The position numbers and the translations under genes were made by a program. The notes beneath the pieces were generated by a model, which worked only from the letters and a program-made list of their open reading frames with translations, made no database searches and was not told where the DNA came from. A DNA stretch of 64,000 nt from positions 3,844,001-3,908,000 of the forward strand of contig NZ_JACBZM010000001.1 in the NCBI RefSeq assembly GCF_013408525.1, written 5' to 3'. Below, one piece after another: positions 20,766-41,258 of this stretch (position 1 is its first letter; each line of letters begins with the position of its first letter). This stretch comes from Nocardioides aromaticivorans. GTDB taxonomy: Bacteria; Actinomycetota; Actinomycetes; Propionibacteriales; Nocardioidaceae.

Positions 20766-21018
20766 GGTCAGGACTCGCTCTCGCTCGGTTGGTTGCGGTG
20801 CGAGAAGCATCCGGTCGTCCTACCCACCTGGAACATCCCGTAGGTGCGGGGAATTCGCGGTCCCAGAAAGGTGGGGGAGGGCGTCGTCGGTCCACGAGCT
20901 CCGGAGCGCGACTGGCGAGCCCCGGGAGTGCGGGCGCTGCGCGAGCCCGGGAAAAGCGTTTGGCCGATCGGCGGGCCGGGCCCCACCCTTGACGCACTCC
21001 ACCGGTACGCGCCGGTGC

Positions 21019-21193
21019 GGAGACCGGGGTTACTTCACTGGTAATGAGCGGGTTGCGGGTTCGAGTCCCGCCGCGACGGGCGACCGTCGTGTAGCTCAAA
21101 CGGCAGAGCAGCTGTCGACACCTCGGTCGACCTGGTCCTCGGCGCGTCCCGTCGGAGGGTGCCCGGTGCGAAGGCCACGGCTACTTCGTCTCC
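21019..21193 (+). ncRNA. yrlA: Candidate YrlA-type Y RNA with circularly permuted tRNA-like module
   Basis: The core at 21055-21110 is an almost perfect tRNA in permuted order. T-arm GCGGG-TTCGAGT-CCCGC (21055-21071) is followed at once by CGCGACG (21072-21078), a GCGA tetraloop closed by G-C, and CGTCGTG (21085-21091). The last two strands make a 7-bp acceptor-like stem. Next come TA and a D-arm GCTC-AAACGGCA-GAGC (21094-21109) with the G18G19 equivalents. A GTCGAC/GTCGAC hairpin follows (21114-21131). Outer strands GGAGAC (21019-21024) and GTCTCC (21188-21193) can close the molecule, with CGGG/CCCG extending it. Bacterial Y RNAs of the YrlA class mimic tRNA and bind Ro60, whose gene starts 124 bases downstream. 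Ends are estimates. Confidence 0.75.
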
Positions 21194-21252
21194 AACGGTC
21201 CCGCTGACAACGGGAAAACACCGTCGCCGCACGGTCCTCGGGCGCCACCCCT

Positions 21253-21316: not shown

Positions 21317-22876
21317 ATGAGCAAGTTCAACCTGAGCGGCCTGCGCCGCACCGGCACGAGCGCCGTCCGCACGGCGGACCACGCGACCGGCCGCACCCAC
21401 GAGGGGGCGCGCGGCCACGCCCGCGACGCCAAGGGCGAGCTGTTCCTGCTCGCCGTCACCTCCTTCGTCGCGGAGGACACCTTCTACGAGGCAGCAGCCG
21501 AGCGCGACGAGCGACTGCGGGCACTCGCCGCGACGGTCGCGCTCGAGGACGTCGACTGGACCCTGCGCCTGGTCCGCTGGCTCCGCACGGGGGCGCACCT
21601 GCGCACGGTCGCGCTCGTCGTCGCCGCCGAGGCCGTCAAGGCCCGCCTGGAGGCGGGCATCGCCGGCGACAACCGCGCGCTGGTCGAGGCCGCCCTCGAC
21701 CGTGCGGACGAGCCGGGCGAGATGCTGGCCTACTGGGCCTTGCGGCACGGCCGCGCCTTCCCCAAGCCGGTCAAGCGCGGCGTCGCGACGGCAGCCGAGC
21801 GTCTCTACACCGAGCGTTCGCTGCTCAAGTACGACGCCCGGGGCCGCGACTACCGGTTCGCGGACGTGCTCGAGCTGACCCACGCGCGTCCCCGCGACGC
21901 GCGGCAGTCGGCGCTGTTCCGGCACGCCCTGGACCGCCGGCACGACCGGGCGGACGCCGTCCCGGACGAGCTCGCCGTCCTCGCGGCGCGGGAGCGGCTG
22001 CTCGCCGTACCCGTCGCCGAGCGGCGCGCGACCCTCGTCGGCGACCCCGAGGGGCTGCGCCGTGCCGGGATGACCTGGGAGCAGGTCGCCGGCTGGCTGC
22101 AGGGTCCCCTGGACGCGGCCGCGTGGGAGGCCCTGGTCCCGTCGATGGGCTACATGGCGCTGCTGCGCAACCTGCGCAACTTCGACCGGGCGGGTGTCGC
22201 CGACGACGTGGCCGCAACGGTGGCTGCCAAGCTGGCCGACGCCGGTGAGGTCGCTCGGTCGCGCCAGCTGCCGCTGCGCTTCCTGTCGGCGTACCGGGCA
22301 GCGCCCTCGCTGCGCTGGGCCTGGCCGCTGGAGCAGGCCCTGCAGGCCAGCCTGGCCAACGTCCCGGAGCTGCCGGGCCGCACGCTGGTGCTGGTGGACC
22401 GCTCGGGCTCGATGTTCTCGCGGCTCTCGGGCCGCTCGACCGTCACCCGCGCCGACGCGGCAGCGGTCTTCGGCGCGGCGCTGGCGGTCCGGTCGGCACG
22501 AGCCGACCTGGTCGAGTTCGGCACGGACAGCCGGACGGTGGCCGCGCGGCGCGGGGAGTCCGTGCTGGCGCTCGCCGGCCGGATGGGCAACCTCGGCGGC
22601 ACCAACACCGCCGCCGCCGTACGCCGCCACTTCCGCCGACACGACCGCGTCGTCATCGTCACCGACGAGCAGGCGTGGGCGGGCTGGCGCGGCCAGGACC
22701 CGACGTCGGCGGTGCCGGCGACGGTGCCGGTTTACACCTTCAACCTGGCCGGCTACCGGTACGGCCACGGCCCCTCGGGCTCGGCCAACCGGCACACCTT
22801 CGGCGGCCTGAGCGACCAGGGCTTCGCCGCGATCCCGCTCCTGGAGGCGGGACGTGACGCCGACTGGCCGTTCTGA
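21317..22876 (+). CDS. rsr: Ro60 orthologue (TROVE + vWA), Y RNA-binding protein
   Basis: The protein has 519 residues. The TROVE/HEAT-like ring domain spans about 1-345. Visible pieces include the opening FNLSGLRRTGTSAVRT, VAEDTFYEAAAERDERLRAL, KPVKRGVATAAERLY and the family motif ALLRNLRNFDRAG. The C-terminal von Willebrand A domain has a MIDAS in LVLVDRSGSMF (Asp361, Ser363, Ser365) and GGTNTAAAV supplying the MIDAS Thr. Ro proteins bind Y RNA on the outside of the ring and misfolded RNA in the cavity. In bacteria they assist RNA decay with PNPase and rRNA maturation. An AAGGAGGG ribosome site lies 10 bases before the ATG. No RtcB/RtcA repair genes are adjacent, unlike enterobacteria. Confidence 0.9.
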   Translation: MSKFNLSGLRRTGTSAVRTADHATGRTHEGARGHARDAKGELFLLAVTSFVAEDTFYEAAAERDERLRALAATVALEDVDWTLRLVRWLRTGAHLRTVALVVAAEAVKARLEAGIAGDNRALVEAALDRADEPGEMLAYWALRHGRAFPKPVKRGVATAAERLYTERSLLKYDARGRDYRFADVLELTHARPRDARQSALFRHALDRRHDRADAVPDELAVLAARERLLAVPVAERRATLVGDPEGLRRAGMTWEQVAGWLQGPLDAAAWEALVPSMGYMALLRNLRNFDRAGVADDVAATVAAKLADAGEVARSRQLPLRFLSAYRAAPSLRWAWPLEQALQASLANVPELPGRTLVLVDRSGSMFSRLSGRSTVTRADAAAVFGAALAVRSARADLVEFGTDSRTVAARRGESVLALAGRMGNLGGTNTAAAVRRHFRRHDRVVIVTDEQAWAGWRGQDPTSAVPATVPVYTFNLAGYRYGHGPSGSANRHTFGGLSDQGFAAIPLLEAGRDADWPF

Positions 22877-40340: not shown

Positions 40341-41258
40341 ATGTTGGGGCCGCACGTCCCGGATCTCCGGGCGCTGGAGCTGCTCGTCGTCGTCTCCCGC
40401 ACGGGGTCGCTGGGGGCCGCCGCGGCCGAGCTCGGCATCACCCAGCAGGCCGCCTCCTCGCGGGTCCGCACCATGGAGTCACTGGTCGGCGAGCCCCTCG
40501 TCACACGCAGCAAGCGCGGCTCCGAGCTCACCCCCACGGGGGAGCTGGTCGTGCAGTGGGCCGACCGCGTGCTCGACGCCGCGCAGGAGCTGGACGCCGG
40601 CATCGGCGCCCTGCGCGCCGACCGCCGCGGCCACCTCGACATCGCCGCAAGCCTCACCATCGCCGAGCACCTGCTGCCCGGTTGGCTGGTCGGCCTGCGC
40701 GCCCAGCAGGTGCAGCGCGGCCAGCAGCCGACCGACATCACGATGACCGCCACCAACACCCAGCGGGTGGTCGAGCTGGTCACGGCCGACGAGGTGACCC
40801 TCGGCTTCGTCGAGGGTCCCGACGCCCCGCGGGGCCTGCGGCACCGCCTCGTCGGCACCGACGAGCTCGTCGTGGTCGTCGGGCCCGCGCACCCGTGGGC
40901 GCTGCGGTCCCGCCGCCGGGTCACGGCGGCGACGCTCGCGGCCACGCCCCTCGTCGTACGCGAGGTCGGGTCGGGCACCCGCACCGTCCTCGAGCGCGCC
41001 CTCGCGGACCTGCCGATGGCGGCGCCCGTCCTCGAGCTCTCGAGTACGGCGTCCGTGCGGGCCGCCGTCGCCGCCGGCGCCGGTCCCGCGGCGGTCGGCG
41101 CGCATGCCGTCCGCGACGACCTGGCCACCGGGCGTCTGGTCCGGGTGACGGTGACCGGCCTCGACCTCACCCGCCGCCTGCACGCGGTCTGGAAGGGCGG
41201 TCCGCACCCGCCCGAGGGCCCGGCCCGCGAGCTGGTCGCCTGGGCGTCGCGCCGCTGA
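40341..41258 (+). CDS. LysR-family transcriptional regulator
   Basis: This 305-residue protein has an N-terminal winged HTH at about 8-68 (DLRALELLVVVSRTGSLGAA, AAELGITQQAASSRVRTME, then LVTRSKRGSELTPTGE). The effector domain spans about 95-300 (LDIAASLTIAEHLLPGWL; DELVVVVGPAHPWA; VVREVGSGTRTVLERAL). The ending AVWKGGPHPPEGPARELVAW belongs to this subgroup, related to CysB/YeiE-like regulators of substrate uptake. It is divergent from fprA, and a 23-base inverted repeat touches its start codon. The inducer is not known. Confidence 0.9.
   Translation: MLGPHVPDLRALELLVVVSRTGSLGAAAAELGITQQAASSRVRTMESLVGEPLVTRSKRGSELTPTGELVVQWADRVLDAAQELDAGIGALRADRRGHLDIAASLTIAEHLLPGWLVGLRAQQVQRGQQPTDITMTATNTQRVVELVTADEVTLGFVEGPDAPRGLRHRLVGTDELVVVVGPAHPWALRSRRRVTAATLAATPLVVREVGSGTRTVLERALADLPMAAPVLELSSTASVRAAVAAGAGPAAVGAHAVRDDLATGRLVRVTVTGLDLTRRLHAVWKGGPHPPEGPARELVAWASRR

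Follow-up and report, generated by a model that had tools for sequence, protein, structure and literature searches.

A Ro60-adjacent YrlA-class Y RNA of Nocardioides aromaticivorans with a putative permuted tRNA head and an anticodon-like arm

The ends of Y RNAs form a Y stem that is held by Ro60, whose HEAT-repeat ring binds Y RNA, and in Nocardioides aromaticivorans an RNA element with tRNA-like arms in permuted order lies before a gene for this protein; the question raised by the locus is how much of a tRNA the element contains and which proteins such a part could address. In the accessible parts of earlier papers, YrlA is described as resembling the D, T and acceptor arms of tRNA, as a substrate of DusA and TruB and as a tether of PNPase (PMC8394870), and the structure PDB 6CU1 as one that superposes on tRNAs once a circular permutation is allowed for (PMC11472068). 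The permuted mimicry and the idea of modification by tRNA enzymes, both put forward in the sequence-only reading that preceded this work, are already published for YrlA and so are not new. Within the portions covered, PMC4726728 also reports Y RNAs from M. smegmatis, PMC9569102 gives a predicted yrlA for some mycobacteria and PMC7765460 mentions YrlA in phages. The literature search, which took in its sources in part, returned no description of an anticodon arm for YrlA; the primary papers may contain one.

The window, which is the whole stretch of 64,000 nucleotides analysed here, occupies C1:3844001–3908000 of a genome of 5.26 Mb and carries on its + strand, one after the other, two Y RNAs and a TROVE/vWA gene (Table 1), the gene starting 168 bases after the end of Y RNA 1. 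The TROVE domain of the gene product exceeds the PF05731 cut-off of 23 bits, with its best stretch at residues 253–328, and the protein resembles the PDB TROVE chains 9l5y and 9kop (E 1.1e-30). The MIDAS motif of vWA domains, DxSxS, is represented by DRSGS at residue 361, and for 43 of the 57 loci of a TROVE search (+ strand scanned) an open frame holds a MIDAS-related motif; in NCBIfam the protein falls into no family at E <= 0.01. The closest named relatives by Ro60 identity are Nocardioides and Pimelobacter, and within the genus the gene is sporadic, being present in two of 59 genomes searched, the host genome included. A linkage to RtcB was rejected: the search of the host genome gave one RtcB gene, about 2.7 Mb from the locus. 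A GAAAA-N4-TTGGC motif at window positions 20951–20964 may be a promoter; it precedes 5 of 121 compared elements, Y RNA 1 by 55 nt and four Streptomyces elements (type A, see below) by 44 nt. On the - strand of the window (40778–40875) ARAGORN calls a tRNA-Cys of 98 nt; it is missing from the 50 tRNA matches that Rfam gives for the genome and is probably false.

Table 1. Features of the Y RNA locus in window coordinates; tRNA numbering is used for the parts of the head.
Feature	Position	Strand	Basis and remarks
Y RNA 1, YrlA class, type A (with putative anticodon arm)	21006..21148	+	R1 120.7 bits; RF02553 39 bits
Lower Y stem, 5' strand	21006..21013	+	Pairs with 21141–21148; outermost pair non-standard
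Conserved GGTGCGGAG, probable Ro60-binding internal loop	21014..21022	+	Columns mostly invariant or nearly so in the 34-element alignment; function inferred
Upper Y helix, 5' strand	21022..21030	+	Pairs with 21120–21128
Anticodon-like hairpin TCA[CTGGTAA]TGA	21035..21047	+	tRNA positions 29–31, 32–38, 39–41; anticodon-like GGT
tRNA positions 42–43	21048..21049	+	Pair with 21111–21112 (28 and 27)
Variable region 44–48 (GGGTT)	21050..21054	+	48 is the Levitt partner of 15
T-arm GCGGG TTCGAGT CCCGC	21055..21071	+	Read in the window; covariation in relatives
Acceptor-like hairpin, 8 bp, one G-U, GCGA tetraloop	21072..21091	+	Read in the window; covariation
U8, A9 (21092–21093), D-arm (21094–21109), A26	21092..21110	+	D-arm is GCTC AAACGGCA GAGC
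tRNA positions 27–28, putative lower two pairs of split anticodon stem	21111..21112	+	Comparison of type A elements
Upper Y helix, 3' strand	21120..21128	+	Covarying partner of 21022–21030
Lower Y stem, 3' strand	21141..21148	+	Covarying partner of 21006–21013
Y RNA 2, without tRNA module	21157..21247	+	R1 46.3 bits; shared GGTGCGAAG...TACTTC motif and closing stem
Ro60 orthologue, TROVE and vWA	21317..22876	+	PF05731 58.1 bits; PDB TROVE chains; MIDAS motif

The structure of Y RNA 1 was examined on 34 aligned YrlA elements, the window included, taken from the loci fetched by the TROVE search. In the structure as written, 92.8% of cells pair against a shuffled mean of 71.0%, and the covariation score is 0.552 against 0.160 in shuffled alignments, none of 500 shuffles reaching it; when partners are slid by 1–3 columns, pairing goes down to 33–52%. 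Compensatory changes in relatives, named in the sequence-only reading as a way to check the stems, were found as double changes at 27 of the 34 pairs. The structure was picked by inspection of the same alignment, which biases these values in its favour, and the D-stem is invariant there and hence no evidence by itself. Of the two helices outside the tRNA-like module, the lower Y stem (helix 1) has 94.9% of cells paired with double changes at seven of eight pairs, and the upper Y helix (helix 2) 88.2% with double changes at all eight.

The proposed permuted succession of T-arm, acceptor and D-arm is present at 21055–21109 (+), with covariation beyond that of the shuffles; the single G-U pair and the GCGA tetraloop of the acceptor stood, and its length, first given as 7 bp, is counted as 8 bp. 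The interval originally assigned to the RNA (21019–21193) had to be replaced, the covarying ends putting Y RNA 1 at 21006–21148 and the old interval entering Y RNA 2, an element that had been missed together with the anticodon-like arm (21035–21049 overall). An outer stem GGAGAC/GTCTCC was rejected since its two strands belong to different RNAs, Y RNA 1 and Y RNA 2. The two RNAs have in common the GGTGCGAAG...TACTTC motif and the closing stem. Y RNA 2 also contains a hairpin, TCCCG[CTGACAA]CGGGA (window 21199–21215), with 5 bp and a 7-nt loop resembling an anticodon loop.

From the 34 elements a covariance model, R1, was built, and the R1 score of the window is not independent because the window is part of the model. 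In the host genome Y RNA 1 and Y RNA 2 are the only R1 matches. The Rfam model of YrlA, RF02553, searched with Infernal as the sequence-only reading had suggested, scores 39 bits on Y RNA 1 (E 3.6e-07 on 471 bases) against a gathering score of 69; at its own cut-off the Rfam search returned no match at Y RNA 1, and the cut-off was reached by none of 14 related loci tried. By its anatomy Y RNA 1 is YrlA-class, outside the present Rfam model, and the original placement of a YrlA-class Y RNA upstream of a same-strand Ro60 gene agrees with the RF02553 score, albeit below 69, with the TROVE domain and with the covariation.

A wider comparison started from 105 R1 matches in 63 sources (the window and 62 TROVE-fetched loci), some sources being without a match and one match (L006) being a tRNA pair. 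The R1 matches of at least 70 bits, minus L002, which is the same element as L008, gave a set of 60 elements (70–137 bits) in which L015:2672 and L063:3783 were lengthened at the 3' end. Later counts were selected by a T-arm/D-arm pattern and without a score cut-off: a first set of 121 elements remained from 251 matches in sets A2, A3 and A4 after the pattern and a duplicate filter, and a second, mostly viral set of 44 remained from 89 A6 matches after the pattern filter, consisting mainly of IMG/VR contigs with some GenBank phages and a plasmid and repeating four first-set elements. Scores below 60 bits occur in one of the 121 (L123) and three of the 44. Seven of the 60 are absent from the 121, namely the near-duplicates L042 and L008 and five pattern failures (L004, L050:3818, L052:3777, L040 and L043:1640), four of these five being type A. 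As the elements are related, the counts do not represent independent events.

A hairpin with a 7-nt loop lies exactly 10 nt before the T-stem in 25 of the 60 elements, whereas, when the 24 nt that precede the T-stem were shuffled, hairpins at this spacing arose 0.99 times on average and at most 4 times in 300 rounds; 10 nt is the length of tRNA positions 39–48. Elements with such a hairpin, here type A, make up 59 of the 121, Y RNA 1 included, and 28 of the 44 in the second set, and the 10-nt spacing is exact in 54 of the 59; two of the 59, L113 and L137, are apparent chance hairpins that were retained. The hairpin stem consists of three pairs, 29–31 with 39–41, which are the selection rule for type A, so that their 96.5% pairing in the 59 elements is not independent and the argument rests on the spacing, the loop and the pairs 27-43 and 28-42. 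Positions 42–43 pair not with the 5' strand of the hairpin but beyond the D-arm, with the two bases that follow position 26, in Watson-Crick fashion in 57 of 59 elements for 27-43 and in 55 for 28-42. The downstream base 29 is a Watson-Crick partner of 41 in only 5 of 59 (T-G in 37), and since the two preceding pairs are Watson-Crick and this one is not, the strand switch falls at 28/29. Among 43 independent nearest pairs of elements, compensated changes number 9 at 28-42 against 5 other changes and 4 at 27-43 against 4, and the downstream 29-41 combination, used as negative control, shows none against 11. The comparison supports a putative anticodon stem of five pairs that is split over two strands, the Y stem joining it at 28/29. 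In alignment A5, MAFFT placed the hairpin one column off in the row of the window and in a few others. The other 62 of the 121 elements, type B, are without an anticodon-like loop and mostly have a continuous downstream stem instead, of 5 bp (G-U allowed) in 45 of the 62, which agrees with the short stem of the Rfam consensus; both types are present in 22 of 94 locus records (distinct elements only).

In tRNA, position 15 of the D-loop and position 48 of the variable region form the Levitt pair. The corresponding bases are Watson-Crick (G-C or A-U) in 57 of 60, 119 of 121 and 39 of 44 elements, and the pair fails in three of the 60 before the pattern filter, two of the 121 and five of the second set; the value of 119 is flattered by the filter because the excluded L040 and L043:1640 have A-A at 15-48. 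Over the 165 rows of both sets (four elements being in both) 158 are Watson-Crick, against 81.6 on average and 105 at most in 10,000 rounds of shuffling, and 82 independent nearest pairs give 14 compensated against 5 other changes. To judge from this comparison, the tRNA core is kept despite the permuted chain order, and with the 15-48 pair and the anticodon-like arm also present, the mimicry called 'unusually exact' at the outset had been understated.

The loop of the type A hairpin has the features of an anticodon loop: in the first set U33 occurs in 56 of 59, a purine at 37 in 54 and A38 in 56, and in the second set U33 in 27 of 28, a purine at 37 in all 28 and A38 in 26. Of the 87 type A rows over both sets (three rows being repeats), 52 have loops identical to an anticodon loop of tRNAs of the host genome, against a mean of 30.4 and a maximum of 40 identities in 1000 column shuffles. 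The loop of Y RNA 1, CTGGTAA, is not among the 52, the host tRNA-Thr(GGT) having ATGGTAA. Modification with t6A needs U36-A37 and TrmD needs G36-G37; positions 36–37 are U-A in 58 of 87 rows and G-G in 14, with A36 in 4. Over the 43 nearest pairs position 35 is the most variable (25 changes) and positions 33 and 38 the least (4 and 5). Common descent explains part of the loop pattern. Copying of a whole tRNA into the element was not supported: in a ranking that omitted the anticodon loop and stem, for which 75 of 87 rows were rankable, the host tRNA with the same anticodon ranks at a median of 10 (from 0) of 40.

Folding energy was dropped as evidence for the structure, with z-scores of -0.06 for 21019–21193, no better than shuffled, and -1.84 for 21030–21116; the support is comparative and not thermodynamic. 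The annotated fold of the window has -53.2 kcal/mol against -70.4 for the minimum free energy fold, in which the D-stem strand pairs elsewhere, and by energy the strand 39–43 prefers the D-stem strand. In the 59 type A elements the mean pair probability is 0.30 for 29–31 and 0.08 for 27–28 (in the window 0.002 for 29–31/39–41 and 0.001 for 27–28/42–43), against an average of 0.62 for the anticodon stems of real tRNAs in the same test; D-stems are similar, with 0.48 and 0.45. RNAalifold leaves the anticodon helices out of its consensus. These results suggest that the new part, a putative anticodon arm in about every second one of the RNAs, is well supported by comparison and not predicted by energy; the arm, if formed, needs tertiary contacts, modification or Ro60.

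Type A elements are spread over many actinomycetotal genera; one plasmid each of Rhodococcus and Deinococcus (L125, L127), Gordonia and Streptomyces phages and viral contigs carry them as well. A class scan with R1 gave matches at E <= 1e-9 in 50 of 394 genomes, and a phylum scan at E <= 1e-3 in 176 of 396; low-scoring matches were rejected as YrlA, all 20 of the low-scoring phylum loci examined (L075–L094, 41–56 bits, best 56.1) holding ARAGORN tRNAs and 19 of them at least two. Since the low scorers sit at tRNA genes, 176 of 396 is not a YrlA count. Read across two adjacent tRNA genes, the 3' half of the first and the 5' half of the second succeed one another in the order found in YrlA, and such neighbouring genes at L075–L094 are a plausible origin of the permuted order. 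In the second Pseudofrankia YrlA (L050:3818–3956, L052:3777–3914) the D-arm is GTCT...GGAC instead of the usual GCTC...GAGC and resembles that of tRNA-Glu in the genome of the window, which hints at other tRNA ancestors. A tRNA annotation overlaps the R1 match in four of nine annotated phage loci (GiJojo, VanLee, Alone3 and Frankenweenie), all four adjoining a Ro-like gene. VanLee alone is clear, with a 'tRNA-Arg(tct)' within a type A element of 111.3 bits (L120:3704–3775), where misannotation is likely; in the other three (L119:3769–3843, Arg, 58.6 bits; L159:2774–2847, Ser, 57.6 bits; L161:2745–2835, Pro, 58.0 bits) the scores of 57.6–58.6 bits are near the level of tRNA artefacts and misannotation is possible.

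On this evidence, 21006–21148 is probably a Ro60-binding YrlA-class Y RNA with a near-complete permuted tRNA head opened at 28/29, whose permuted order, helices, 15-48 pair, apparent split 5-bp anticodon stem and anticodon-like loop are supported by comparison. A reading as an ordinary YrlA, in which the T, acceptor and D arms alone matter and the linker hairpin with its U-turn loop is unrelated to tRNA, is rather unlikely. It would fit the 62 of 121 elements that are without the hairpin, 45 of them with the continuous 5-bp stem, as well as the low probability of the split stem by energy and its omission by RNAalifold; it leaves unaccounted the 10-nt spacing in 54 of 59 elements, the addition of three and two pairs to five as in tRNA, the U33, R37 and A38 of the loop and the identity over 7 nt to real tRNA loops, 52 of 87 against a shuffled maximum of 40.

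Much less credible is that the element is a remnant of tandem tRNA genes, a 3' half and the 5' half of the next tRNA, without any Y RNA: the order is the same and R1 matches of 41–56 bits do lie at tRNA genes in all 20 loci, but the Y stems covary outside the tRNA module, the acceptor strands pair mutually and covary, and the 60 analysed elements score 70–137 bits with Ro60 alongside; the covariation already disfavours this origin. The most improbable reading is a real permuted tRNA gene that is matured for translation. The Rfam tRNA model (RF00005) gives the element 28.0 bits, just below its cut-off of 29, and ARAGORN calls a relative, the type A YrlA at L016:3728–3799, tRNA-Ile(gat); against this, the acceptor is closed by a 4-nt loop and no 3' CCA end is present, a break at 28/29 divides the anticodon stem, conservation extends to the Y stem and the host already has a normal tRNA-Thr(GGT). 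At Y RNA 1 itself ARAGORN found no tRNA, neither a free acceptor end nor a linear cloverleaf being available there.

In the favoured reading of a Y RNA with a permuted tRNA head, Y RNA 1 would be transcribed and bound by Ro60 via the Y stem, and the head would run from the anticodon arm through the variable region, T-arm, GNRA-closed acceptor stem and D-arm back to 27–28, as in a tRNA opened between 28 and 29 with the Y stem inserted inside the anticodon stem. Such a head could dock proteins that read tRNA, among them modification enzymes and PNPase, and type A would add readers of the anticodon loop. The likeliest of these are anticodon-loop nucleases or enzymes that modify position 37, and for them type A may act as a Ro60-tethered bait or sensor. 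The extension of this proposal is tentative and carries less than even confidence: about half of the Ro60-adjacent YrlA RNAs of Actinomycetota, together with some from Deinococcota and phages, would be whole permuted tRNAs with modification-competent loops mostly of the t6A class, presented by Ro60 as bait or sensor, the fold possibly having arisen by tandem tRNA duplication.

Permuted tRNA genes of red algae and archaea mature into normal tRNAs. Y RNA 1 resembles them in the 3' half preceding the 5' half, and differs in that its acceptor is a closed hairpin and the Y stem appears to lie inside the anticodon stem. With YrlA as represented by RF02553 and Salmonella YrlA (PDB 6CU1), within the published detail consulted, it has in common the Y stem at the ends, the adjoining Ro60/Rsr and the permuted T-arm, acceptor and D-arm; the matched part of the Rfam consensus, in contrast, shows one stem of 4 bp in the place of the anticodon arm and lacks a 7-nt loop, whereas Y RNA 1 keeps an anticodon-like loop and its Y stem probably enters between 28 and 29. 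The tRNA-less bacterial Y RNAs, to which Y RNA 2 belongs, share the GGTGCG-AG...TACTTC motif and the closing stem and lack the tRNA module. tmRNA and viral tRNA-like structures are likewise cases of tRNA mimicry outside normal tRNAs (PMC8394870, PMC11472068, accessible parts), but, unlike in Y RNA 1, permutation is absent from the tmRNA fragment and non-circular in the two viral structures given in the table of PMC11472068.

If the anticodon arm is real, YrlA would be more than a three-arm mimic, and enzymes recognising whichever part of a tRNA, among them nucleases and those acting on the anticodon loop, could read some of its members. Salmonella YrlA is described, in the part of PMC7790460 consulted, as uncut by an anticodon nuclease, and its tRNA-like domain is proposed there as a possible competitive inhibitor; as type A carries the kind of loop that anticodon nucleases cut, this idea becomes directly testable. 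In practical terms, RF02553 at its cut-off misses all 14 related loci tried and tRNA finders mistake some members for tRNAs. Around the Ro60 genes of the compared loci, RNA ligase genes were seen in a Streptomyces phage (L123:3229–3981) and on a Bifidobacterium plasmid (L126:8212–9249), and two viral contigs (L195, L173) carry five R1 matches each, arrayed before the Ro60 gene.
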